Below, piece by piece: positions 241 to 43,056 of a stretch of DNA of 64,000 nucleotides (its first letter is position 1; each line of letters starts with the position of its first letter). This DNA is from a virus. The stretch spans positions 1 through 64,000 of IMG/VR virus record IMGVR_UViG_3300036790_000219; one strand, written 5' to 3'. The notes beneath the pieces were generated by a model. The model was not told the origin of the DNA, searched no databases, and worked only from the letters and a program-made list of their open reading frames with translations. Position numbers and translations under genes: made by a program.

Positions 241-315
241 GCCGCCGTAGCTCAGCGATAGAGCAATTGTTTCGTAAACAATAGGTCGTCAGTTTGATCC
301 TGACCGGTGGCTCCA
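241..315 (+). tRNA. tRNA-Thr(CGU)
   Basis: Acceptor GCCGCCG pairs with CGGTGGC, then T and encoded CCA. Anticodon stem ATTGT/ACAAT, loop TTCGTAA, anticodon CGT. First gene of the array and directly abutting the next tRNA. Confidence 0.93.
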
Positions 316-390
316 GCCAGTTTATCCTTAGTGGTAGAGGTCCTGTTTTGTAAGCAGGGTGTGTTGGTTCGATTCCAGCAACTGGCACCA
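316..390 (+). tRNA. tRNA-Thr(UGU)
   Basis: Acceptor GCCAGTT/AACTGGC, A, encoded CCA. Anticodon loop TTTGTAA gives TGT. Starts at the base after the preceding CCA, so the two must be cut apart at a shared boundary. Confidence 0.93.
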
Positions 391-399
391 TTAAATTTT

Positions 400-471
400 G
401 CCGTTTTAGCACAGTGGTAGTGCACCACATTGGTAATGTGGGGGTCAGTGGTTCAATCCCACTAGACGGCA
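400..471 (+). tRNA. tRNA-Thr(GGU), CCA not encoded
   Basis: Acceptor GCCGTTT/AGACGGC with discriminator A471. Anticodon stem CCACA/TGTGG, loop TTGGTAA, anticodon GGT. The next bases are CGC, so the CCA end must be added after transcription, unlike almost all neighbours. Confidence 0.9.
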
Positions 472-472
472 C

Positions 473-549
473 GCGTCGGTAGCCCAACGGTAGGAGGCGG
501 CTCCTTCAGAAGGAGTACAGTGTGGGTTCGAATCCCTCTCGACGCACCA
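473..549 (+). tRNA. tRNA-Leu(CAG), short variable arm
   Basis: Acceptor GCGTCGG/TCGACGC, A, CCA. Stem GCTCC/GGAGT, loop TTCAGAA, anticodon CAG. The variable region is only about 5 bases, whereas bacterial Leu tRNAs carry a long arm. Amino-acid identity rests on the anticodon alone. Confidence 0.8.
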
Positions 550-674
550 TCTAAACAGATCGGATAACAGGAGCATTGGTCGCAAGCCAATCAAGTCACC
601 GGTCTGGGCTGGTGTTCCGTAGGACGCTGCGGCCTGTGATGGGGTTTAACCCTCAGATGCCAGCCAGTTATTTT
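550..674 (+). other. Spacer with degenerate tRNA-like pieces
   Basis: A hairpin ATTGG/CCAAT at about 573-589 has a 7-base loop containing GCA but lacks T33. Further on, TGGTGTT can pair with GATGCCA just before GCCA at about 655-666, but the enclosed sequence is too short for a tRNA. Perhaps decayed tRNA or another structured RNA; I cannot assign it. Confidence 0.3.
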
Positions 675-752
675 GCCCCTGTAGCCCAAACGGTAAGAGG
701 CACCTGCTTCAAACCCAGGATAGTGTCAGTTCGAATCTGACCAGGGGCACCA
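675..752 (+). tRNA. tRNA-Leu(CAA), short variable arm
   Basis: Acceptor GCCCCTG/CAGGGGC, A, CCA. Loop TTCAAAC, anticodon CAA, with a C-C mismatch closing the anticodon stem. As in the CAG gene, the long leucine variable arm is missing and the D arm begins GCCC. Confidence 0.8.
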
Positions 753-871
753 GTTCAGATGATCGGTAGACCAGAATGGGCCTTAATGGGATTCGCCGAC
801 GTGAATGTACGAAACGGTTACCATCTGCCTTCAGGGCCGGTAGCTCATCTGATTCGATTGATTCGCTTTTT

Positions 872-960
872 GTGGGTATGCTCGGAATGGTAGACGGCGC
901 GGACTTAAAATCCGTAGAGGCTGAAAAGGCTTGCAGGTTCGAGTCCTGCTACCCACACCA
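872..960 (+). tRNA. tRNA-Leu(UAA)
   Basis: Acceptor GTGGGTA/TACCCAC, A, CCA. Stem GCGGA/TCCGT, loop CTTAAAA, anticodon TAA. Has a normal long variable arm, in contrast to the CAG and CAA genes. Bases 753-871 before it hold no clear gene. Confidence 0.95.
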
Positions 961-975
961 ATTTTAGAGGAAGCT

Positions 976-993
976 ATGGCAACTCCCTCTTAA
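976..993 (+). CDS. Mini-ORF MATPS with Shine-Dalgarno
   Basis: ATG GCA ACT CCC TCT TAA, preceded by AGAGGAAG at a normal distance. Too short to be called a gene safely. Similar tiny ORFs with ribosome sites sit between other tRNAs here (1332, 3876, 5820). Confidence 0.2.
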   Translation: MATPS

Positions 994-1017
994 AGAATAC
1001 CCGCAATTGAAGAGCAC

Positions 1018-1092
1018 GTGCGCTTAGCTCAGCGGTAGAGCGTCTGTTTTACACGCAGAATGTCGGGGGTTCGATCCCCTCAGCGCACACCA
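1018..1092 (+). tRNA. tRNA-Val(UAC)
   Basis: Acceptor GTGCGCT/AGCGCAC, A, CCA. Anticodon stem TCTGT/GCAGA, loop TTTACAC, anticodon TAC. Confidence 0.95.
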
Positions 1093-1151
1093 CTTGATTT
1101 TATTATAACTTTGTTGAATTAATGCCTACTAAAAATATACGGTAGCAACAT

Positions 1152-1227
1152 GGGTCTTTAGCTCAGTGGAATGAGCGTCTCTTTGACATGGAGAAGGCCG
1201 CTGGTTCGACCCCAGCAAGACCCACCA
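1152..1227 (+). tRNA. tRNA-Val(GAC)
   Basis: Acceptor GGGTCTT/AAGACCC, A, CCA. Stem TCTCT/GGAGA, loop TTGACAT, anticodon GAC. Confidence 0.95.
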
Positions 1228-1234
1228 ATAATTT

Positions 1235-1308
1235 GTACCTGTAGCTCAACGGTAGAGCACACGGCTGATAACCGTGCGACGAAGGTTCAACTCCTTACTG
1301 GTACACCA
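1235..1308 (+). tRNA. tRNA-Ile(GAU)
   Basis: Acceptor GTACCTG/CTGGTAC with one T-T mismatch, A, CCA. Stem CACGG/CCGTG, loop CTGATAA, anticodon GAT. Confidence 0.92.
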
Positions 1309-1359
1309 CATATAAAAGGAACTTCAAATCATGAGCAAGGATCGAAAACGGGCCAATAC

Positions 1360-1434
1360 GGACCCGTGGTGTAATAGGTAGCACGCTCGACTTTTAATCT
1401 TGAAGTCTGAGTTCAACTCTCAGCGGGTCTACCA
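1360..1434 (+). tRNA. tRNA-Lys(UUU)
   Basis: Acceptor GGACCCG/CGGGTCT, A, CCA. Counting from the D arm gives loop CTTTTAA, the usual lysine loop, anticodon TTT, but two of five anticodon-stem pairs are mismatched. A one-base shift would pair better and read TTA, which would suppress UAA stops; I prefer lysine because spacing and A37 fit. Confidence 0.8.
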
Positions 1435-1444
1435 TTAAAATTTT

Positions 1445-1520
1445 GTGCCTTTAGCTCAGTTGGTAGAGCACCGTCCTCTTAAGTCGGGGGTCCTCGGTTC
1501 GAACCCGAGAAGGCGCGCCA
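1445..1520 (+). tRNA. tRNA-Lys(CUU)
   Basis: Acceptor GTGCCTT/AAGGCGC, G, CCA. Stem CCGTC/GTCGG, loop CTCTTAA, anticodon CTT. Its final A opens a run of 21 A residues. Confidence 0.94.
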
Positions 1521-1540
1521 AAAAAAAAAAAAAAAAAAAA
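1520..1540 (+). repeat. Poly(A) tract of 21
   Basis: An uninterrupted run of A from the last base of tRNA-Lys(CUU) to two bases before tRNA-Leu(GAG). It is the longest homopolymer I see in the window and may be a slippage-prone or processing spacer. A sequencing artefact is possible. Confidence 0.9.
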
Positions 1541-1542
1541 TT

Positions 1543-1629
1543 GTCCTCGTGGCGGAATTGGTAGACGCGCAACGTTGAGGCCGTTGTGGAGAAATACCGG
1601 TGCTGGTTCGATTCCAGTCGAGGACACCA
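1543..1629 (+). tRNA. tRNA-Leu(GAG)
   Basis: Acceptor GTCCTCG/CGAGGAC, A, CCA. Stem CAACG/CGTTG, loop TTGAGGC, anticodon GAG. Normal long variable arm. Confidence 0.95.
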
Positions 1630-1634
1630 CTTTT

Positions 1635-1709
1635 GCGTCGTGATGCATCTGGTGAGGCAATCGGTCTGTCTAACCGACGAGACGGGTTCAACCCCCGTAC
1701 GACGCGCCA
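1635..1709 (+). tRNA. tRNA-Asp(GUC)
   Basis: Acceptor GCGTCGT/ACGACGC, G, CCA. Stem TCGGT/ACCGA, loop CTGTCTA, anticodon GTC. Confidence 0.95.
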
Positions 1710-1905
1710 AAATTCAGCTGATGGGTCCGGTGTCTGACGGTACAGCGGTACCAGACCCTGCCGGCTGCGTAAAACGGGACAATAGGGGTTTGTGTGTTTT
1801 CCCGTCCCTGAGCAACACGGAGTACCGAAGCCGCCCGTTGCTCATCCTGATCAGACGTAGGGCCTCTGATTACAACCCGACCAGCATGCGGGGCACTCAA
1901 TTTTA
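1710..1905 (+). other. Structured non-coding spacer
   Basis: About 196 bases with several inverted repeats: GGTAC-AGCG-GTACC nested in GGGTC/GACCC (about 1725-1760), ACGGGA/TCCCGT, TGAGCAAC/GTTGCTCA (about 1810-1846), and ATCAGA/TCTGAT. No tRNA fold or open frame with a ribosome site. Perhaps an unrecognised RNA. The TGATCAGA...TCTGATT pair recurs near 4143-4186. Confidence 0.4.
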
Positions 1906-1982
1906 CAGGGTACAGCTTAGTCCGGAAAAGCGCACGCCTCGGACGCGTGAGACCGCTGGTTCGAATCCAGCTACCCTGACCA
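1906..1982 (+). tRNA. tRNA-Pro(CGG)
   Basis: Acceptor CAGGGTA/TACCCTG, A, CCA. Stem CACGC/GCGTG, loop CTCGGAC, anticodon CGG. Confidence 0.93.
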
Positions 1983-1987
1983 ATTCG

Positions 1988-2063
1988 GTGCACGTAGCTC
2001 AATCGGTAGAGCCGGTCGCTCATAACGGCCTCGATGCTGGTTCGATCCCAGCCGGGCACACCA
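1988..2063 (+). tRNA. tRNA-Met(CAU), elongator or Ile2
   Basis: Acceptor GTGCACG/CGGGCAC with one A-G mismatch, A, CCA. Stem GGTCG/CGGCC, loop CTCATAA, anticodon CAT. A paired G1-C72 argues against an initiator. Elongator Met and lysidine-modified Ile cannot be told apart by eye. Confidence 0.9.
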
Positions 2064-2084
2064 ACTCAGGAAGGAGGTTAGCAA

Positions 2085-2624
2085 ATGCAGAACTATCCCG
2101 CACTCGTTTTGAATGCTGACCTTCAGCCGGTCAACTATTTCCCGTTGTCGTTGATCACGTGGGAAGACGCAATCAAGGCTGTCTATGAAAAGACACACTT
2201 TGTGGTTGCTGAATATGAGCGCATAGTTCATAGCCCGTCGATCAGGATGAGGATCCCTTCGGTTCTAGCTTTGTGTAGATATCAGCCGGTTCCGAAGCAT
2301 GTCGCCTTCACGCGGTTCAATGTATTCTTGCGGGACCGCTTCCGTTGTCAGTATTGTGGTAGGAAGAAGCACGACAGCCGGGAGTTGACATTTGACCACG
2401 TACGTCCTCGGTCACAAGGTGGCCAGACGTGTTGGGAGAACGTTGTAGCGTGCTGCTCACCTTGCAACACGGAGAAGGACTGTCAAACTAGTATGCGACC
2501 ACTTCGGTTGCCACATCAGCCAACGTCTTCTGAGTTGATGGCGGCGAAGCGTGCGTTCCCGCCGAATTATCTGCATGAGACCTGGCGCGATTATCTCTAT
2601 TGGGATACCGCGTTGGAGCGTTGA
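2085..2624 (+). CDS. HNH endonuclease
   Basis: 179 aa. Residues about 85-125 form an HNH nuclease core of the McrA type: C-Q-Y-C-G, then L-T-F-D-H-V-R-P-R-S-Q-G-G, W-E-N-V-V, and C-S-P-C-N. The two Cys pairs probably bind zinc and D-H is the catalytic pair. The ATG follows a strong site (AAGGAGG). Sitting between tRNA-Met and tRNA-Arg, it could be a homing enzyme or serve host-DNA degradation or packaging; no NUMOD domain is visible, so its exact role is open. Confidence 0.85.
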   Translation: MQNYPALVLNADLQPVNYFPLSLITWEDAIKAVYEKTHFVVAEYERIVHSPSIRMRIPSVLALCRYQPVPKHVAFTRFNVFLRDRFRCQYCGRKKHDSRELTFDHVRPRSQGGQTCWENVVACCSPCNTEKDCQTSMRPLRLPHQPTSSELMAAKRAFPPNYLHETWRDYLYWDTALER

Positions 2625-2637
2625 GTATATGTTTTGA

Positions 2638-2714
2638 TTTCCGGTAGCTCAATGGATTAGAGCACAACCCTCCGAAGGTTGAGGTTGCTGGTTCGAGTCC
2701 AGTCCGGAAAACCA
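2638..2714 (+). tRNA. tRNA-Arg(CCG)
   Basis: Acceptor TTTCCGG/CCGGAAA, A, CCA. Stem CAACC/GGTTG, loop CTCCGAA, anticodon CCG. Its CCA lies three bases before the first Y-RNA-like element. Confidence 0.92.
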
Positions 2715-2717
2715 ATA

Positions 2718-2819
2718 CGGATGGCGTAGATAGCGGTTACTTCGTTGGTTGAGGAACTGAGGTTCGCCTCAGTTTGGCCGGTTCAAATCCGGCAGAAACC
2801 GTCGTCGTTTGTTCCTCCG
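2718..2819 (+). ncRNA. Y-RNA-like element A with tRNA-like domain
   Basis: The outer stem CGGA-(T)-GG pairs with CC-TCCG, leaving one bulged T. The conserved box GGCGTAG (2723-2729), GCGGTTACTTCG and the 3' box TTTGTTCC (2808-2815) match elements C and D beside the Ro60 gene. The interior resembles a tRNA: GGTT/AACC closing helix, a 7-bp hairpin with a TTCG loop (2756-2773) in place of the anticodon arm, and a perfect T arm GCCGG-TTCAAAT-CCGGC (2777-2793). Bacterial Y RNAs are known to pair a Ro60-binding stem with a tRNA-mimic domain. Assignment to that family is inference from this likeness and the Ro60 gene in the same array. Confidence 0.75.
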
Positions 2820-2828
2820 TTGAATTTG

Positions 2829-2918
2829 GGAAGGTCAACTCGTCAGGGTGTGAGCATCGCTTGGAAAGCGATTGGTACGTTAATAGCGTATGAGGATCGT
2901 GTCCTCGGCCTTCCGCCA
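2829..2918 (+). tRNA. tRNA-Ser(GGA)
   Basis: Acceptor GGAAGGT/GCCTTCC, G, CCA. Stem ATCGC/GCGAT, loop TTGGAAA, anticodon GGA, with the long serine variable arm. Confidence 0.94.
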
Positions 2919-2939
2919 GTACTAAGGGATAGCTTACTT

Positions 2940-3488
2940 ATGCCAAAACGTGAGAAGCCACGTAAATATCCAAAGTGGGTGGTGAGGGTAGATGATGACG
3001 GTAAATTGTGGCGAAGGTTTGTTGAGAAACGCCGCGCAAGGTATACTGTTGGTTTCGAGCTTTCCTTTGAGCAGTTTTGTTCATTGTTGGTAGCCGCAAA
3101 GATAAAGAGTTCGGATATTGGCTTAAATAGATTCCATCTCGCTCGAATTGGCGATGAAGGTCCCTACGTCTTAGGATGTTGCCGCTTCCTTTGGTGTACC
3201 AAAAATACTGCAGAAATACGATCGGAGCGGCGTTATCGACCATTTGGAAACAAGATTTGGTTGGGGCGTACTCACACGTTAAAGACGCGTAAGCAGATGA
3301 GTAATTCTCATTTGGGTAAGCACGGCGGAACACTTAACTCACAATTTGGTCGTTGTTGGATAACCAAGAAGGGTGTTGATAAAAAGATTGCTGCTTCTGA
3401 ATTAACGTCCTACCTAAAGCGGGGCTTTAAGAGAGGGAGAGCAAAACCGTTTGGGAGCAGTAGCCAGCGGCCTGGCAGCGAGCCTTGA
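2940..3488 (+). CDS. Putative homing endonuclease in the tRNA array
   Basis: 182 aa from ATG 2940 (AAGGGAT upstream). No clean HNH or GIY-YIG core is visible. The middle (G-P-Y-V-L-G-C-C-R-F...N-T-A-E-I) and the tail (N-S-Q-F-G-R-C-W-I-T...K-K-I, then R-G-F-K-R-G-R) resemble DNA-binding portions of phage homing endonucleases. It lies between two Ser tRNA genes, a plausible invasion site. Its last 35 bases run into tRNA-Ser(UGA), so the protein's C-terminus is written in tRNA sequence. An earlier in-frame ATG at 2745 would start inside the Y-like RNA and is unlikely. Confidence 0.6.
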   Translation: MPKREKPRKYPKWVVRVDDDGKLWRRFVEKRRARYTVGFELSFEQFCSLLVAAKIKSSDIGLNRFHLARIGDEGPYVLGCCRFLWCTKNTAEIRSERRYRPFGNKIWLGRTHTLKTRKQMSNSHLGKHGGTLNSQFGRCWITKKGVDKKIAASELTSYLKRGFKRGRAKPFGSSSQRPGSEP

Positions 3489-3538
3489 AAACTCGTAGCA
3501 CGGAAATGTGTGGGGATCGACACCTCACTGCTCCGCCA
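3454..3538 (+). tRNA. tRNA-Ser(UGA), overlaps upstream CDS
   Basis: Acceptor GGAGCAG/CTGCTCC, G, CCA. Loop CTTGAAA, anticodon TGA, with C-A closing the anticodon stem. Long variable arm. The first 35 bases are also the 3' end of the upstream endonuclease-like gene. Confidence 0.9.
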
Positions 3539-3542
3539 ATTA

Positions 3543-3632
3543 GGAGACATGGCTGAGTCCGGCTTAAAGCATCGCTCTCGAAAAGCGACACACCGCAAGG
3601 TGTCCTCCGTTCGAATCGGAGTGTCTCCGCCA
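3543..3632 (+). tRNA. tRNA-Ser(CGA)
   Basis: Acceptor GGAGACA/TGTCTCC, G, CCA. Stem TCGCT/AGCGA, loop CTCGAAA, anticodon CGA, long variable arm. Confidence 0.95.
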
Positions 3633-3638
3633 AATTGA

Positions 3639-3712
3639 CGCGCGGTAGTGGAGGAGCTCCATAGAAGCCTCATAAGCTTCAGACCCCAGTGCAACTCTGG
3701 GCTGCGCAACCA
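3639..3712 (+). tRNA. Initiator-type tRNA-fMet(CAU)
   Basis: Acceptor CGCGCGG/CTGCGCA with an unpaired C1-A72, the hallmark of bacterial initiators; A73, CCA. Stem GAAGC/GCTTC, loop CTCATAA. The usual three G-C pairs near the anticodon are absent, and the T loop reads TGCAACT instead of TTCRANY, so initiator function is an inference. Confidence 0.8.
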
Positions 3713-3716
3713 AATT

Positions 3717-3808
3717 GAGTGGGAATATGTGCACGACGGCAAGGTGCCACCTGTCTGTAAAACAGGCCCTCTAAGGAGGCGGAGGTTCGACTCCTCTCCC
3801 ACTCACCA
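3717..3808 (+). tRNA. tRNA-Tyr(GUA)
   Basis: Acceptor GAGTGGG/CCCACTC, A, CCA. Stem CCTGT/ACAGG, loop CTGTAAA, anticodon GTA. Long variable arm as expected for Tyr; the D-arm region is unusually long. Confidence 0.9.
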
Positions 3809-3875
3809 TTTGATTACTTTTCTCAAGTGCAGTATGTTTAGCGTGTGTAGTAAATTGGCCAATGGAGGTATACAA

Positions 3876-3902
3876 ATGAAGAAGCCTAGACAGCTTCGAT
3901 AA
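3876..3902 (+). CDS. Mini-ORF of 8 codons with strong ribosome site
   Basis: MKKPRQLR, preceded by TGGAGGT at ideal spacing. It lies in a 140-base gap (3809-3948) with no other recognisable content. Could be a leader peptide, a minigene or chance. Confidence 0.25.
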   Translation: MKKPRQLR

Positions 3903-3948
3903 CACAAATTAAAAAGACCTTAGAGATGATGTTATATAGGATGGGCAT

Positions 3949-4013
3949 GAGTTGCTATGGTTAGCGGGGCCGTCTGAAAAGCGGCCCTACGGAGTTCGAT
4001 TCCCTGTGGCTCG
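3949..4013 (+). tRNA. Degenerate tRNA-Phe-like gene (GAA)
   Basis: GAGTTGC pairs with GTGGCTC using three G-T pairs. Strong anticodon stem GGCCGT/GCGGCC, loop CTGAAAA, anticodon GAA, T loop TTCGATT. Only 65 bases: the D arm is reduced and no CCA follows. A complete tRNA-Phe lies at 4379, so this may be a decaying copy. Confidence 0.4.
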
Positions 4014-4232
4014 CTGTTGGTTTGGTCGGAATCGGTAGGCCAGACTATTTTGCCCGCGCCGATGACTTTCTTGCCTGGTGGAGAGAACCGTGGCACGTGT
4101 CTAGAGGAGGAACTCCAAGAGGGTTCCTTAAACAGCCTTGAATGATCAGAGGGCACGTAAGCAATGGTGTGGATCCAATCTGATTGTCCCTTTTGTCGAG
4201 ACAGGGGCAAATAAAGTCTCGACAACCAATTT
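4014..4232 (+). other. Structured non-coding spacer with 10-bp hairpin
   Basis: Contains GAACC...GGTTC around 4087-4132 enclosing a GGAG-GAA-CTCC hairpin, TGATCAGA...TCTGATT (about 4143-4186), and a perfect 10-bp inverted repeat TTGTCGAGAC (4193-4202) / GTCTCGACAA (4216-4225) with a 13-base loop. No U tract follows, so a simple terminator is unlikely. Not a tRNA I can fold. Confidence 0.4.
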
Positions 4233-4307
4233 GCGGATGTAGTTCACCGGCAGAACGTCTCGTTGCCAACGAGAAAGTAGTGGGTTCAATTCCCACCATC
4301 CGCTCCA
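4233..4307 (+). tRNA. tRNA-Gly(GCC)
   Basis: Acceptor GCGGATG/CATCCGC, T, CCA. Stem TCTCG/CGAGA, loop TTGCCAA, anticodon GCC. Confidence 0.94.
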
Positions 4308-4378
4308 ATAAGGTGCCGAATGCTTTATCAGGCTTAAATGTGAGCAGGAAAGCTAACCTCACAGCCTTAAAAACTATT

Positions 4379-4453
4379 GCCCAGGTAGCTCAGTGGTAGA
4401 GCACTGCACTGAAAATGCAGGTGTGGATGGTTCGATTCCATCTTTGGGCACCA
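4379..4453 (+). tRNA. tRNA-Phe(GAA)
   Basis: Acceptor GCCCAGG/TTTGGGC with wobble pairs, A, CCA. Stem CTGCA/TGCAG, loop CTGAAAA, anticodon GAA. Confidence 0.94.
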
Positions 4454-4457
4454 TTTT

Positions 4458-4529
4458 GGGCCGGGCACTAGGGTGCAGCTGATCCTTGCAAGATTGGCGC
4501 GGTGGGTGCGGTCCCCACTCGGTCCACCA
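4458..4529 (+). tRNA. tRNA-Ala(UGC), atypical loops
   Basis: Acceptor GGGCCGG/TCGGTCC, A, CCA. D arm shrunk to GCAC-TAGG-GTGC. Loop CTTGCAA, anticodon TGC. T stem GTGGG/CCCAC is perfect but its loop is TGCGGTC rather than TTCRANY. The only alanine tRNA seen. Confidence 0.8.
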
Positions 4530-4578
4530 ACTATGCAAGTATCTGGCGCGAGTCATGTTGCGCTGGCCCTACTTGCTA

Positions 4579-4623
4579 GAGAGTGGGAACCCCGGTGCAC
4601 CGCAAGTACCACTCTCGCTTTTT
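4579..4623 (+). terminator. Hairpin followed by T run
   Basis: GAGAGTGG (4579-4586) pairs perfectly with CCACTCTC (4609-4616), and TTTTT follows at 4619-4623. The 22-base loop holds the palindrome CGGTGCACCG. It looks like an intrinsic terminator inside the array, just ahead of tRNA-Asn; alternatively it is a processing structure. Confidence 0.45.
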
Positions 4624-4699
4624 CGAGGCAAGCGCACTAGGTGTGTGCACCTGACTGTTAATCAGGCCGCGCTCGGTTCGAATCCGAGGCCTCGAGCCA
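4623..4699 (+). tRNA. tRNA-Asn(GUU)
   Basis: Acceptor TCGAGGC/GCCTCGA, G, CCA. Stem CCTGA/TCAGG, loop CTGTTAA, anticodon GTT. Confidence 0.94.
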
Positions 4700-4703
4700 A
4701 TTC

Positions 4704-4779
4704 GCTCCCTTCCTCTAGCGGCTTAGGAGGTCGCCCTCTCACGGCGAGAACATGGGTTCGAATCCCATGGGGAGCGCCA
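4704..4779 (+). tRNA. tRNA-Glu(CUC)
   Basis: Acceptor GCTCCCT/GGGGAGC, G, CCA. Stem TCGCC/GGCGA, loop CTCTCAC, anticodon CTC. Confidence 0.93.
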
Positions 4780-4788
4780 AAGTTTTTT

Positions 4789-4864
4789 GCTCCTATAGCT
4801 CAGTGGATAGAGCGCCGTGCTACGAACGCGGATGTCGGGGGTTCGAATCCCTCTAGGAGCTCCA
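4789..4864 (+). tRNA. tRNA-Arg(ACG)
   Basis: Acceptor GCTCCTA/TAGGAGC, T, CCA. Stem CCGTG/CGCGG, loop CTACGAA, anticodon ACG, which would need A34 deamination to read CGC. Confidence 0.94.
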
Positions 4865-4866
4865 AT

Positions 4867-4944
4867 CTGTGCATAGCTCAGCCTGGCCAGAGCACCTGCC
4901 TTGGGCGCAGGGGGTCGCAGGTTCAAATCCTGCTGCGCAGACCA
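4867..4944 (+). tRNA. tRNA-Pro(UGG)
   Basis: Acceptor CTGTGCA/TGCGCAG, A, CCA. Stem CCTGC/GCAGG, loop CTTGGGC, anticodon TGG. Confidence 0.94.
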
Positions 4945-4950
4945 AACTAA

Positions 4951-5026
4951 TGCCCGTTAGCTCAGCTGGTAGAGCACAACACTCTGAATGTTGGGGTCAT
5001 CCGTTCGAACCGGATACGGGCTTCCA
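4951..5026 (+). tRNA. tRNA-Gln(CUG)
   Basis: TGCCCGT/ACGGGCT with an unpaired first position, common for Gln tRNAs; T, CCA. Stem CAACA/TGTTG, loop CTCTGAA, anticodon CTG. Confidence 0.92.
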
Positions 5027-5032
5027 AAATAT

Positions 5033-5106
5033 GGCAAAGTGGCGGAGTGGTTACGCAGCGGTCTGCAAAACCGTTTACACCGGTTCAATTCCGGTCTTTG
5101 CCTCCA
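5033..5106 (+). tRNA. tRNA-Cys(GCA)
   Basis: Acceptor GGCAAAG/CTTTGCC, T, CCA. Stem CGGT/ACCG, loop CTGCAAA, anticodon GCA. The spacer 5107-5234 after it has short inverted repeats (AGGCC/GGCCT, CCTGGG/CCCAGG) but no gene I recognise. Confidence 0.94.
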
Positions 5107-5234
5107 ACTCTAGGAAGTGCGCACCTAGACGGTGAAGGCCGCCGTGGCCTGGGAGGGTTGTCAAGGCAAAAGTATAGGTGACTACCGGGTTGATCGCCGT
5201 GTCGCTTATTGAGCCTGAGCCCAGGATGATTTTT

Positions 5235-5311
5235 GCTCTCGTAGCTCAGTGGACAGAGCGCCAGGCCTCTACCCTGGGACGTCGTGGGTTCGAATCCTAC
5301 CGAGAGCGCCA
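5235..5311 (+). tRNA. tRNA-Arg(UCU) with C33
   Basis: Acceptor GCTCTCG/CGAGAGC, G, CCA. Stem CCAGG/CCTGG, loop CCTCTAC, anticodon TCT. Position 33 is C instead of the near-universal T. Confidence 0.9.
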
Positions 5312-5334
5312 ATTACTTTTACTTTGTTCATAAA

Positions 5335-5410
5335 GATCCCATAGTTCAGCGGATAGAATGCTGCGGTCCTAACGCAGAGGTCGCTGGTTCGAATCCAGCT
5401 GGGATCGCCA
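5335..5410 (+). tRNA. tRNA-Arg(CCU)
   Basis: Acceptor GATCCCA/TGGGATC, G, CCA. Stem CTGCG/CGCAG, loop GTCCTAA, anticodon CCT. Fourth arginine tRNA of the array. Confidence 0.94.
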
Positions 5411-5421
5411 AGTTTCAAGAA

Positions 5422-5697
5422 TTCTCCGGTTTGAGCATAGTTCCGGAGAAGGATGGCACTGAATGGTTATGATGGGAAGTGCGAACGGACGCGGGGGCAG
5501 TACCCGCCACCTCCACCATGCGGGGGTGAACCAGGATCGACGCCGCGCGGAATTCGTAACTTGTGCTCGGTGAGAGGCCCACGTTAGTGGCTGACAAACC
5601 ACAGATGCCAACGACAACGTTGTGCAGCTCAGTAGTTACGCCGCGAGGCGTAAATACTGAACCGGGTTCGGGTGGCACCTGGGAACAGAAGCCACCC
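5422..5697 (+). ncRNA. ssrA: Circularly permuted tmRNA
   Basis: The 3' end comes first: GGACGCGGG..CCCGCC..CTCCACCA near 5488-5518 copies the usual tmRNA terminus. Three bases later GGGGGTG (5522-5528) begins the normal 5' end, followed by a GGATCGACG block. GGGGGTG pairs with CACCTCC (5508-5514) to close the acceptor. TTCG..ACTT downstream can pair with AAGT..CGAA upstream as the long P2 helix. A tag frame opens at GCC 5607 and ends at TGA 5658: ANDNVVQLSSYAARRKY. ANDN is a classic tag start, but the end lacks the usual LAA. Hairpins TTCTCCGG/CCGGAGAA (5422-5450) and GGGTGGC/GCCACCC (5670-5697) bound the two pieces. The T loop is GGCAGTA rather than TTCRANY. tmRNA tags stalled proteins and frees ribosomes; permuted genes are typical of alphaproteobacteria. 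Confidence 0.85.
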
Positions 5698-5705
5698 ACT
5701 TATTT

Positions 5706-19766: not shown

Positions 19767-20009
19767 ATGCATCCTCTAGCTTGGAAGAACTGCAGCGGGG
19801 GTAATAGTGGTGCGTGGAATGAGGTTCACTCTGGGGATCATGTTATTTACCTTATAGACGGTCGCAAGGGTACGTTAGATGAGTGTCTCCACGATGGAGA
19901 TGCTTTTATTACTTGGGATGACGGTTCTTTTGGTATGGTAAGGTGGTACAATCTGGCTCCTGTGTCAAGAGTGAAGACTACAGCTACTGGTTGGGAAGCT
20001 ATGTTATAA
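19767..20009 (+). CDS. Hypothetical 80-aa protein
   Basis: Contains a small beta-rich core: V-H-S-G-D-H-V-I-Y-L-I-D-G-R-K-G-T, D-A-F-I-T-W-D-D-G-S-F-G and V-R-W-Y-N-L, reminiscent of an SH3-like barrel. Its TAA shares a base with the polymerase ATG. No family recognised. Confidence 0.65.
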   Translation: MHPLAWKNCSGGNSGAWNEVHSGDHVIYLIDGRKGTLDECLHDGDAFITWDDGSFGMVRWYNLAPVSRVKTTATGWEAML

Positions 20010-22564
20010 TGGGGTTGTTATTTGCGGACACTACTGGTGGTGAGTTCAAGGCCAAGTCTGAAACGAAGCTCCTAAATCAATTGGGGTGTAAGGCTTGCCC
20101 GCTCAATCACACACCTGGTAAGATTGATGCTACAGGAGCGGACAAACCGCTTATCTATATCCTCGGCGAAGCGGCGGGCCGTGAGGAAGAAGAACAGCGT
20201 CTACAATTTGTAGGAACCGCTGGCAAGCTTCTACGCCAGTACATTCCAAAGAAGTACCTCCCGCAGATTCGTTGGAATAACGTCTTAAATTGTCATCCAC
20301 CAGGGAACAAGACCCCGGAGCGTACTGAAACGGAATGTTGCCGGCCACGCATCGTAGTTGATATCGAGCGTACTAAGCCAAAAGTTATCTTCGGCTTCGG
20401 TGGTACTCCGCTAACTTGGGTGGGTGGTTTTTCTGGTATTACATTTTGGCGTGGGCGGCGGATGCCCGTTAAAGTAGGTAGTCACACGTGTTGGTACTAC
20501 GCCTTTTTACATCCCTCATATCTTCACCGCATTCATCGGGCTGATCGTTACTCAGGCGAGGTTACGCCATCGGATGAAGAGTTCATTACTGAGCTTGACT
20601 TGATGCGGGCCTTCGATGAACTTGATGACTTACCGCCGCCTGAAGTTCACACACCGGAGATGGCTAAGGCAAATGTTGAGTGTATTACTAAGATCCGTGA
20701 TATTGAATTGGCTTTGGCTTGGGCAGCGAAGCAGAAGAGTGTAGGACAAGATTATGAGACCAATTGCATTCGCCCTTTCGAAGCAAAAGCTAAAATTCTT
20801 ACTGCATCGGTGGGGACACTAGAACGGGCCTTCGCTTTCCCAATGATGCACCCTGGTGCGGGGTATAGTCGGGAACAGCGCGAGGATATCATGAACCTTT
20901 GGAAGCGGTTCTTGATGAATGCGCCTTGTCGTAAGATGGTTCATAATCTTGCCTTTGAGATGGAATGGTCAGCAGAGTTCTTTGGTACGGAAGTTCTACG
21001 TGCGCGGCCCTGGGAAGATACTGCCAACGCAGCGGCGATCGTTGATGAGCGTTCTGGGGATCGTAAAAAGGTTGGACCATTCAGTTTAGAGTTCTTGGTT
21101 CAACAATACTTTGGCTTCAATATCAAGAAGGTCTCAAATGTTAACCGCTCTAATCTTGAGAACACCGACCTTCCCACCGTTCTGCTTTACAACGGTATAG
21201 ACGCAAAGTACCACGACGGTCTCTGGTACAAACTTTGGGAAGCCATTAAGCAAGAAGGGTTAGAGGAAGCCTATAGATTGGCGGTACGCCGAGTCCCTAC
21301 CGTGACGCTTGCCCAGGTTAAGGGTGTACCGGTAGACCAGTCGAGGGTAAAGGTTCTTCAGAAGAAGTACAACACGATCGTTGAGGGGATTGAGGATAAG
21401 ATCTTCGCCGTTGATGTGGTGGGCGAATTTAAGCGTAAGACCGGTGCAGAATTTAGTCCCTCATCCAACCCTGATATTGTAGATATCTTCGAAAAGTTTT
21501 TGCATTGTAAGGAAGTCAACGTTGTTGATAAGTACACCAAGAAGGAAAAGAAATCCTGTGATGAGTCGGTGCTCTCTCAGATTAAGCACCCGCTCGCACA
21601 ACTGATATTAGATTATCGGGGTGCCACTCATCAACGTTCTACGTATATTGAGCCATTGCTTAAAGGTTTTGCTAGCTCTGTTATCTTTCCCGATGACCTT
21701 ATTCATGCCCAGTTTAATACCTTCTTTGCAGAGACAGGAAGGTTAAGCTGCTCGACGCCGAATTTGCAGAACTTCCCCAAGCGAGACGCTGAAGCTAAGG
21801 AAGTTCGTTACCCCATTCGTGCGCCACAGGGCTGCTTGATTCTAAGCTTCGACTATGGGCAGATCGAAGCCCGTGTCATTGCAATGTTCACTCAGGACAA
21901 ACGCTTTTGCAAGGCACTTTGGGAACGCTATGATGTTCACCAGGATTGGGCTGAGCGTATTGCTTACGACTACCCAGCACGTGTTGGTGGGAAGAAGAAC
22001 TTAACCGACAAGAAGGCGATGAAGGACTTCCGCACAGACATAAAGAACCAGTGGACGTTCCCCCTCTTCTTTGGTGCACAACTCAAGTCCGTGGCAGGAT
22101 ACCTTAGTATCCCTGAGAACGTTCTGCGCCCACATTACAAGAAGTTCTGGCGGGAGTTTGAAGGCGTTAAGAATTGGCAGGAAGAACTCAAGAAATTCTA
22201 CTACGAGTATGGTTATGTGGAGTGTTTGACGGGACGCCGACGTCATGGCCCGTTGAGCTTAAACCAGATACTAAACTCGCCGGTTCAAGGAACTGCTTGT
22301 GAAATTGTTATGGACGCTATGTCGCGTCTCTCTGAAACCGGAGACCCACTTTTGCAACCGGAGCTTCAGATCCATGACGATCTAACTTTTATTCGGGTGC
22401 CCGAGGAGCAGATTGATGTTGTGGCGGAAAAAGTGATCGACAAGATGTTGGATGTTCCCTTTGATTTTATCAACGTTCCGATCACTGCGGAAATGAGTGT
22501 TGGTGAGAATTGGATGCAGCTTGAGGAAGTAGGGACGTATTCCTCCGATACGTGGAGAAAGTAA
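20009..22564 (+). CDS. UDG-DNA polymerase A fusion
   Basis: 851 aa. Residues 20-190 form a family-4/5 type uracil-DNA glycosylase: C-x2-C in G-C-K-A-C-P-L, G-E-A-A-G-R-E-E-E, F-V-G-T-A-G, L-N-C-H-P-P-G-N, a further Cys pair, and F-L-H-P-S-Y. The four-Cys cluster site is kept. A 3'-5' exonuclease follows (D-Y-E-T-N near 245), then family A polymerase motif A F-D-Y-G-Q-I-E-A-R, motif B-like K-N-Q-W-T-F-P-L-F-F-G, and motif C I-H-D-D-L. SPO1-type hmU phages have a comparable fusion. ATG 20009 abuts the previous stop. The UDG may clear uracil during replication with hmdUTP. Confidence 0.9.
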   Translation: MGLLFADTTGGEFKAKSETKLLNQLGCKACPLNHTPGKIDATGADKPLIYILGEAAGREEEEQRLQFVGTAGKLLRQYIPKKYLPQIRWNNVLNCHPPGNKTPERTETECCRPRIVVDIERTKPKVIFGFGGTPLTWVGGFSGITFWRGRRMPVKVGSHTCWYYAFLHPSYLHRIHRADRYSGEVTPSDEEFITELDLMRAFDELDDLPPPEVHTPEMAKANVECITKIRDIELALAWAAKQKSVGQDYETNCIRPFEAKAKILTASVGTLERAFAFPMMHPGAGYSREQREDIMNLWKRFLMNAPCRKMVHNLAFEMEWSAEFFGTEVLRARPWEDTANAAAIVDERSGDRKKVGPFSLEFLVQQYFGFNIKKVSNVNRSNLENTDLPTVLLYNGIDAKYHDGLWYKLWEAIKQEGLEEAYRLAVRRVPTVTLAQVKGVPVDQSRVKVLQKKYNTIVEGIEDKIFAVDVVGEFKRKTGAEFSPSSNPDIVDIFEKFLHCKEVNVVDKYTKKEKKSCDESVLSQIKHPLAQLILDYRGATHQRSTYIEPLLKGFASSVIFPDDLIHAQFNTFFAETGRLSCSTPNLQNFPKRDAEAKEVRYPIRAPQGCLILSFDYGQIEARVIAMFTQDKRFCKALWERYDVHQDWAERIAYDYPARVGGKKNLTDKKAMKDFRTDIKNQWTFPLFFGAQLKSVAGYLSIPENVLRPHYKKFWREFEGVKNWQEELKKFYYEYGYVECLTGRRRHGPLSLNQILNSPVQGTACEIVMDAMSRLSETGDPLLQPELQIHDDLTFIRVPEEQIDVVAEKVIDKMLDVPFDFINVPITAEMSVGENWMQLEEVGTYSSDTWRK

Positions 22565-40742: not shown

Positions 40743-40957
40743 GCCGCGTAATTATTCACAACCATTTACCAAAGCGTAAGACACGGGATGCTGACTGGTG
40801 GGTGGAATATGATTATAAACACCCCAATGGTTATAAAGGTCATGACATACGAATAGTTAAAGCTGGGACGAGGGCTGAGGCCATGGAAAAGGTAACGCGT
40901 TCGTCTGGTTTGGGAACACAAATCAAAGTTACTAGTGTTGAGAAAGATAGAGACTAG
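40739..40957 (+). CDS. HNHLP-motif protein 2
   Basis: 72 aa opening M-S-R-V-I-I-H-N-H-L-P-K-R-K-T-R-D-A. The remainder contains two strands and a helix (I-V-K-A-G-T-R-A-E-A-M-E-K-V). Overlaps genes on both sides by 1-4 bases. Confidence 0.6.
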   Translation: MSRVIIHNHLPKRKTRDADWWVEYDYKHPNGYKGHDIRIVKAGTRAEAMEKVTRSSGLGTQIKVTSVEKDRD

Positions 40958-43056
40958 TGGCTCCTCGTTACCGTCCTACATCGTCTGTGCCTACTTTGGA
41001 TTCGGCAACGTTTATGCCGAAGCAGCCTAGGCATGCTTATGTGCGGCCCGGTAAGGTTATTGGTCGGGCTTCGATTAAGCAATCCACCATTAAGAAGGTC
41101 GCACAGGAAGGTAAGCAACTTCGTAAGTCTGCCACTGGTGACTCCTTCCAGAACTTCGCCCTCAATTTAGGCATTGGTACCAACAATGCACTGAGCCAAA
41201 GTCTCTACGGCTTCTACCCAATCACGCGGGTTAGAACACTTTTAGATTGGATCCATCGCGGTAGCTGGATCGGGGGAATTGCCGTAGACTTGCTGGCAAA
41301 TGATATGACGCGCGGTGGGGTGGAGATCCTAACCATAGAAGATCCTCAGAAGGTTGAGAAGCTGCAGCAAGGCATCACCCGTCTCCAGATCTGGAAGAAG
41401 CTGTGCTCAACAGTAAAGTGGTCCCAGTTGTACGGGGGTTGTCTGGCGGTCTTGCTGATTGATGGTCAGGATCCCAAGACGCCGCTACGTATTGATACCG
41501 TCACCAAGAATCAGTTCAAGGGATTGATGGTCCTCGACCGGTGGATGGTTGACCCTGACTTACAGCGGTTAGTTGCTGACTTCGGCCCCCACCTCGGTGA
41601 ACCAGAATGGTATCGTGTGGTAGCAGATGCTCCCGCCATGCGTAACCAGTCCATTCACTACACTCGCTGTATCCGGTTGCTTGGAATTGAGTTGCCATAC
41701 TGGCAGTGTATTATGGAGAATCTCTGGGGCTTGTCGGTCTTTGAGCGCATCTACGATCGCATGGTGGCGTTTGATTCCGCCACGACCGGTGCGGCGCAGC
41801 TGGTGTATAAGTCCTATCTGCGCACGTATAAGATGGACGGCTTGCATGAGGCGGCCACTGCAGCCGGTGACGCACTCGTCGGTATCTCTCAGCGCGTTGA
41901 GTTGATGCGTAAGTACCAGTCTATTGAAGGCATAACCCTACTCGACAGCAAGGATGAGTTTGCTGATACTGGTGGTGCGTCGTCGAGCTTCTCTGGTATT
42001 GCTGACTTGATGCTGCACTTCGCGGAGCAGTTGTCGGGTTCGCTCCAAGTGCCGTTAGTGCGGTTATTGGGTCAATCCCCTGCTGGTTTGAACTCCACGG
42101 GGGAAGCAGACCTGCGGACGTACTACGACAACATTCTACAACGTCAGGAGCACGATCTGCGTGAGGGTATGAACACGGTTCTCCGTGTTCTGGCTAATTC
42201 CCTTGCTATCAAGCTGCCGGAGGAATTCAATTTTAACTTCGTACCGTTGTGGCAACTCGATGAAACTGAAAAAGCTGATGTCGCCGATAAAACCACACGG
42301 ATGGTGTTGGAAACCGAAGCCGGTGGGTTGGTCTCTCAAAAGACGGCACTCCAAGAATTGCGGCAACTCGCCCGCGTCACGGGGCGGTGGACGAACATTG
42401 ACGACAAGATGATTAATGAGGCTAACGACGTCGCCGAACCGCCTGAAGCTGAAATGGGGGCCGCTGCTGAAGGCGGCGAGGGAGGCGAGGAAGAGGCCAA
42501 AGGCGGTGAGGGAGGCAAACCCCCTGGCGGAGAGAAAGGCTCCTCTGCAGCCGAGCTAAAGGGTTTAGAGGGCTTCAAACAGATCCGGCGGGCGGTGGGT
42601 GGCGGGAGCGACCGGGCTTTTGATTCTTACCAGCTTCCGGTCAGCGAAATAGCAGGTTTGCAGATTGTTATAGAAAACCAGGCCGGAACTATTCGTTCAG
42701 GGGAAGGGTGGAGCGTAGTAATGCCTTGTGCGTATGGTTATATAAGAAGGGTAGGGTCTGCGGAAGGGGCTGACGAATATTTGGATTGCTTTGTAGGACC
42801 AAATACGAGTTCTCGTGATGTTTGGGTTGTTGATGCAGTAAATCCGGAAACTGGGAAGTTCGATGAGCATAAAGTCATTCTTGGGGCAAAGACCTCTCAC
42901 GAGGCGCTTGATTATTTTCGCAAGGCTTACGACGATGGCGCAGCCAGACGTATAGGGGCAGTTACGCACTTTGACATGTCGGAGTTGCGATACAAAAACT
43001 GGATTGCTAGGGGCGATAAGCGACGACCACTTGCGATGGATCGAGTTGCGGCATGA
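40957..43056 (+). CDS. Portal protein fused to a pyrophosphatase-like domain
   Basis: 699 aa from GTG 40957. Residues 60-480 match the DUF1073 portal family (S-L-Y-G-F-Y-P-I-T-R-V-R, W-I-G-G-I-A-V-D-L-L-A-N-D-M-T-R-G-G). A Gly/Glu-rich linker (about 500-530) leads to a C-terminal domain with R-S-G-E-G-W-S-V-V-M-P-C-A-Y-G-Y-I, D-E-Y-L-D-C-F-V-G-P and G-K-F-D-E-H-K-V-I-L-G, the pattern of the phage InPase (inorganic pyrophosphatase-like) domain. Portal rings thread DNA; the extra domain would hang from each of twelve subunits. Confidence 0.88.
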   Translation: MAPRYRPTSSVPTLDSATFMPKQPRHAYVRPGKVIGRASIKQSTIKKVAQEGKQLRKSATGDSFQNFALNLGIGTNNALSQSLYGFYPITRVRTLLDWIHRGSWIGGIAVDLLANDMTRGGVEILTIEDPQKVEKLQQGITRLQIWKKLCSTVKWSQLYGGCLAVLLIDGQDPKTPLRIDTVTKNQFKGLMVLDRWMVDPDLQRLVADFGPHLGEPEWYRVVADAPAMRNQSIHYTRCIRLLGIELPYWQCIMENLWGLSVFERIYDRMVAFDSATTGAAQLVYKSYLRTYKMDGLHEAATAAGDALVGISQRVELMRKYQSIEGITLLDSKDEFADTGGASSSFSGIADLMLHFAEQLSGSLQVPLVRLLGQSPAGLNSTGEADLRTYYDNILQRQEHDLREGMNTVLRVLANSLAIKLPEEFNFNFVPLWQLDETEKADVADKTTRMVLETEAGGLVSQKTALQELRQLARVTGRWTNIDDKMINEANDVAEPPEAEMGAAAEGGEGGEEEAKGGEGGKPPGGEKGSSAAELKGLEGFKQIRRAVGGGSDRAFDSYQLPVSEIAGLQIVIENQAGTIRSGEGWSVVMPCAYGYIRRVGSAEGADEYLDCFVGPNTSSRDVWVVDAVNPETGKFDEHKVILGAKTSHEALDYFRKAYDDGAARRIGAVTHFDMSELRYKNWIARGDKRRPLAMDRVAA

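Follow-up and report, generated by a model that had tools for sequence, protein, structure and literature searches.

The closest described relatives of the locus reported here are the two-piece tmRNAs of alphaproteobacteria (Rfam family RF01849), with which it shares the gene order, the tRNA-like domain, H2, the ANDN start of the tag, H5, and the 3' pseudoknot, as well as a short spacer between the two pieces (2 to 6 nt in bacterial genes). It differs from this family in being carried by a phage, in a tag that lacks the Ala-Ala end, and in a stop codon placed at the foot of H5. A general proposal for the processing of two-piece tmRNAs invokes RNase P and tRNase Z (PMC3985003), and the end of the ssrA tag that ClpX binds is Ala-Ala-COO- (PMC10638403). 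Permuted tmRNAs in phages have a precedent in the OM43 methylophage Melnitz, and 53 of the 133 unique phage tmRNAs surveyed in the same paper were called two-piece (PMC9004378). Our locus is likewise phage-borne, and several of the phage genes, from Melnitz and from the named isolates discussed below, also lie within tRNA arrays. A tag with a nonstandard C terminus is found in Carsonella ruddii, where it ends in Lys in some strains (PMC4131195); that organism differs in having a highly reduced endosymbiont genome with no phage involved, and its tag is unrelated to the one described here. The tmRNA-like RNA of mycobacteriophage DS6A, which consists of a tRNA-like domain only and has no tag frame (PMC4131195), is comparable in that it, too, belongs to a phage and may leave proteins unmarked for proteolysis.

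We analyzed a window of 64,000 nucleotides, the first 64 kb of the 120,057-bp virus record IMGVR_UViG_3300036790_000219, for which no close phage DNA was found in INPHARED. ARAGORN called 37 tRNA genes at positions 241 to 6761, all on the plus strand, and more than 30 intact tRNA genes form an array around the tmRNA gene. One of the calls, at 1360 to 1434, was reported as a suppressor "Stop(tta)" tRNA; its anticodon stem allows two registers, giving the anticodon UUA or UUU, the second of which would make it a Lys tRNA. The idea of stop codon reassignment, which came from this call, was rejected: TAA, TAG, and TGA all serve as stops in a standard-code gene map. Directly after the array lies a gene for a TROVE (Ro60-like) RNA-binding protein (7248 to 8612; PF05731, 6e-12; phrog_850, 2e-53), whose nearest isolate relatives, at about 60% identity, are encoded by Brevundimonas and Caulobacter jumbo phages. 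The stretch upstream of this gene (6760 to 7247) is likely a Y RNA region. It holds a tRNA-like module in permuted T-arm/acceptor/D-arm order, a 29-nt element that is present in three copies and contains GGCGTAG..GGTTACTTCGC, a perfect 21-nt inverted repeat (7119 to 7139 and 7199 to 7219), and a subthreshold YrlA match (6979 to 7046; 33.5 bits). In several relatives, a tRNA-like element is called at the corresponding location. Elsewhere in the window are a portal protein with a C-terminal inorganic-pyrophosphatase-like domain (40957 to 43056; PF06381 plus PF18823) and a DNA polymerase A with an N-terminal uracil-DNA-glycosylase-family domain (19943 to 22564).

The tRNA array almost certainly contains a circularly permuted tmRNA gene of alphaproteobacterial type, carried by the phage. 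The gene and its neighbors comprise the following features.

5335 to 5410, plus strand: tRNA-Arg(CCT), the upstream neighbor of the tmRNA (ARAGORN, Rfam)
5422 to 5518, plus strand: acceptor piece, the 3' part of the mature molecule, encoded first; 5' limit approximate (RF01849/RF04321, pair check)
5422 to 5450, plus strand: hairpin starting the acceptor piece (8/8 in the pair check)
5455 to 5483, plus strand: H2 strand in the acceptor piece (pair check)
5491 to 5507, plus strand: T-arm (T-stem, 5/5 pairs)
5508 to 5518, plus strand: acceptor strand and CCA, CACCUCCACCA (CACCUCC-ACCA) (pair check)
5519 to 5521, plus strand: intervening segment TGC, from the CCA end to the mature 5' end (sequence)
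5522 to 5700, plus strand: coding piece; 3' end uncertain, 5697 to 5705 (RF01849 match, pair check)
5522 to 5528, plus strand: acceptor 5' strand GGGGGUG (pair check)
5607 to 5660, plus strand: tag frame ANDNVVQLSSYAARRKY and stop UGA (translation, RF01849 alignment, tag comparison)
5629 to 5660, plus strand: H5 hairpin, 13 bp with one G-A mismatch and a GCGA loop (fold and pair check)
5666 to 5697, plus strand: 3' pseudoknot, stems 5666-5669/5683-5686 and 5670-5676/5691-5697 (pair check)
5706 to 5799, plus strand: tRNA-Ser(GCT), the downstream neighbor of the tmRNA (ARAGORN, Rfam)

An Rfam scan of the window matched RF01849 (alpha_tmRNA) at 5409 to 5700 over the full model (1 to 355) with 134.8 bits (E = 1.2e-36; cutoff, 50 bits) and RF04321 (tmRNA_permuted) at 5455 to 5653 with 95.5 bits (E = 3e-17; cutoff, 47 bits), and Rfam gave a single tmRNA match in the whole record. 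ARAGORN missed the tmRNA, making no call between the end of tRNA-Arg(CCT) at 5410 and the start of tRNA-Ser(GCT) at 5706. The coding piece contains, in order, the acceptor 5' strand, a D-loop-like GGATCGAC, the H2 strand, the tag frame, H5, and the 3' pseudoknot. All seven pairs of the acceptor stem form, including a G3-U70 pair (G5524 opposite U5512); a G-U at the third acceptor position is the alanine identity pair. The H2 segments that join the two pieces pair at 5/5, 8/8, and 3/3 positions, the H5 strands at 6/6 and 7/7, and the pseudoknot stems at 7/7 and 4/4; the 7-bp pseudoknot stem was also recovered in the energy fold, and the fold had a z-score of -3.7 against shuffles. The initial annotation had read this stretch as a circularly permuted tmRNA whose two halves both resemble tmRNA ends, with a terminal sequence three bases before a GGGGGTG 5' end, and had named a covariance scan for the permuted form among its checks. 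That reading is borne out by full-length matches to both models, far above their cutoffs, by the completely paired acceptor stem, and by the succession of CACCUCCACCA, TGC, and GGGGGTG in the listed positions. The T-arm, acceptor, and 5' end are 85 to 91% identical to alphaproteobacterial tmRNAs, which, together with the neighboring TROVE gene, whose nearest counterparts are in Brevundimonas and Caulobacter phages, points to an alphaproteobacterial link.

The tag of this tmRNA departs from the family pattern at its end. The conserved resume context is present (..ATGCCAACGACAAC), and the frame opens with GCC AAC GAC AAC at the resume codon GCC (5607 to 5609) and runs for 17 codons, encoding A N D N V V Q L S S Y A A R R K Y, before UGA at 5658 to 5660. 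A misplaced frame was considered and rejected, the other frames having neither the conserved start nor an Ala-Ala end when read from the sequence. In the RF01849 alignment, tag codons 12 and 13 (GCC GCG, 5640 to 5645) fall on the terminal Ala-Ala codons of the family, so the canonical end is still visible, minus its stop. Four extra codons, for RRKY, follow at 5646 to 5657; they cross the H5 loop and 3' strand, and the UGA forms the last three bases of H5, so that the whole hairpin, stop included, lies inside the tag frame. The tag thus ends in a tyrosine after three basic residues, with no Ala-Ala degron end. Local folds were too noisy for the position of the stop relative to H5 to be compared across tmRNAs.

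We compared the gene with other permuted tmRNAs, both for its spacer and for its tag. Searching 84,980 bacterial and archaeal genomes for the permuted junction, with 0 to 6 bases allowed as spacer, we found it in at least 119 alphaproteobacterial genomes, the listed contigs being labelled alphaproteobacteria or unplaced proteobacteria. Among the listed bacterial loci and three viral ones, spacers of 2 (13 loci), 3 (19), 4 (20), 5 (42), and 6 (28) bases occurred. In IMG/VR, the junction with spacers of up to 30 bases gave at least 120 matches, and permuted alpha-type tmRNAs were present in at least 124 other viral records, counting IMG/VR contigs and named isolate phages. Since spacers of 2 to 6 nt are common in alphaproteobacteria, the 3-nt spacer is not unusual, and we set it aside as a novelty; the gene form and the spacer are ordinary. 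The tag is a different matter. We read about 230 tags, all from fetched permuted tmRNAs, with a parser that ranks an ANDN-like start above an Ala-Ala end but gives the latter some weight. Among 122 viral tags, 117 ended in Ala-Ala, two in ALAASA, and two were cut by contig ends, the last being that of the window; an Ala-Ala end is thus present in 117 of the 119 other complete viral tags. The ALAASA ends, in place of ALAA, belong to two near-identical long tags of phage permuted tmRNAs (L063 and L064). Bacterial tags ended in Ala-Ala in 112 of 115 cases, and the others comprised one GA, one RA (in an ANRN frame), and one unparsed tag. With this end near universal in both viral and bacterial tags, the tag of the window is a clear outlier. 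Of what had been said of these two features beforehand, the tag that begins ANDN and lacks the usual degron held up, its translation being ANDNVVQLSSYAARRKY; the "very short spacer" is indeed short, but it is not rare.

Among named isolates, we found permuted tmRNAs in Caulobacter phages CcrColossus and CcrPW, Brevundimonas phages Bambus and Kikimora, Mesorhizobium phage Cp1R7A-A1, and Erythrobacter phage vB_EliS-L02. No tmRNA is annotated at these loci in CcrColossus, CcrPW, Cp1R7A-A1, or vB_EliS-L02. For these four phages, to which the comparison of named-phage tags is confined (Brevundimonas and Melnitz tags are left out), the tags ANDNHFEARALAA, VNDNDVVVARDEVRLAA, VNDNDAPVMEQLLAA, and VNDNDAPVMEQRLAA all end in Ala-Ala, in contrast to that of the window, and the spacers are about 80 to 100 nt long rather than 3. 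In CcrColossus (L323, about 470 to 763) and CcrPW (L324, about 454 to 748), the permuted tmRNA lies between tRNA-Cys and tRNA-Met, with resume codon GTC and tags VNDNDAPVMEQLLAA and VNDNDAPVMEQRLAA; the vB_EliS-L02 tag starts VNDN too.

We also looked for the window's own tmRNA in relatives. A search for the same tag in IMG/VR gave three matches, all without tmRNA features. The same acceptor and T-arm were found in three contigs of one lineage, with a tag ending in Ala-Ala and nothing comparable to the window tag. Relatives by capsid, TROVE, and DNA polymerase were mostly fragments lacking a tmRNA, and none was found to carry the window's tmRNA; the single tmRNA-bearing relative (a 138-kb record, locus L173) has a dissimilar permuted tmRNA with a normal tag. 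As deposited, and with no relative found that carries the window tmRNA, the tag is a real but single, unreplicated anomaly.

The most likely interpretation is that this is a host-derived, alpha-type tmRNA that would rescue ribosomes with host SmpB and AlaRS and whose tag would be poorly recognized by ClpX. Expression, processing, charging, rescue, and altered proteolysis are set out here as we infer them from the gene, its structure, and the deposited tag. The tmRNA would be transcribed together with its tRNA neighbors, and tRNA-Arg(CCT) probably shares its transcript. RNase P would cut at the mature 5' end, inside the hairpin loop that the CCA end makes with the 3-nt spacer; trimming of the three bases left over would then give two RNA pieces joined by the acceptor stem and H2. 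Since the CCA end shares a single short loop with the spacer, RNase P cleavage and three-base trimming would suffice, and cleavage at the 5' end of tRNA-Ser(GCT) would release the coding piece. Host AlaRS would charge the tmRNA via the G3-U70 pair, and host SmpB would deliver it to stalled ribosomes, where translation would resume at GCC 5607. The 120-kb record encodes no SmpB, SspB, or ClpP, so host partners would be needed. With the stop after Ala-Ala lost, the ribosome would read through the whole of H5 and end at the UGA after Arg-Arg-Lys-Tyr. The parts for alanine charging, SmpB binding, and rescue are intact, and rescue should still work; the tag, which exposes no Ala-Ala at its carboxyl end, is expected to be a poor degron for ClpX. 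On balance, we favor a real tmRNA that is functional in rescue and has a tag not ending in Ala-Ala.

Several other explanations have to be weighed against this one. That the match is a chance similarity or a tRNA-like fragment and no tmRNA at all would fit the missing ARAGORN call, but it is refuted by two independent covariance models (E = 1e-36 and 3e-17) and has next to no probability. It is also very improbable that the molecule acts mainly by titrating host SmpB or AlaRS, the decoy role proposed for the DS6A tmRNA, in which case the tag would be irrelevant. A DS6A-like molecule does inhibit tmRNA (PMC4131195), but here, unlike in DS6A, none of the tag frame, the resume context, H5, or the 3' pseudoknot has been lost.

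The remaining alternatives concern the tag end: with no relative found to share the tag, the anomaly could reflect a lesion or an assembly error next to the stop codon. If a short stretch had recently been inserted behind the Ala-Ala codons, as a natural lesion in a drifting gene whose phage is independent of the tag, this would explain why the Ala codons sit exactly at the terminal Ala-Ala position of the family, why the RRKY codons are unlike any known tag end, and why the tag stands apart from the 117 of 119 others that end in Ala-Ala. Hairpins are known to be perfected by insertions, and here the inserted stretch would sit at the tip of H5. Against such a lesion, the remaining tmRNA elements are all intact with no sign of decay, and the hairpin has been perfected rather than disrupted; we regard it as unlikely, though it deserves serious consideration. 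An error of sequencing or assembly near the hairpin, with a true tag ending in Tyr-Ala-Ala, appears a good deal less probable. The record is a metagenomic virus contig, the sequence is known from a single copy, and the anomaly coincides with the tip of a strong hairpin; nevertheless, no errors are apparent in the 37 tRNA genes and the large reading frames around it. A short insertion after the Ala codons, whether by mutation or by assembly error, accounts for the sequence equally well. Beyond a functional rescue tmRNA with an altered tag, it is tentatively conceivable, if doubtful, that the phage remodelled an alphaproteobacterial tmRNA so that rescue was kept and the degron disarmed, with stalled products, mostly those of the phage, receiving a stable basic tail or going to another protease. 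The sequence is compatible with the earlier suggestion that stalled phage proteins may be redirected away from ClpXP.

The window tmRNA touches on the unsettled question of why phages carry tmRNA genes. The degron is retained in nearly all phage tmRNAs, and the usual assumption is therefore that a phage gains in part from tagging proteins for proteolysis. If the tag end is due only to a lesion or to faulty assembly, what is left is one further example of a permuted tmRNA carried by a phage. If it is true, rescue and tagging would be separated in nature, and whether the phage needs ribosome recycling, the tag, or neither would become testable.
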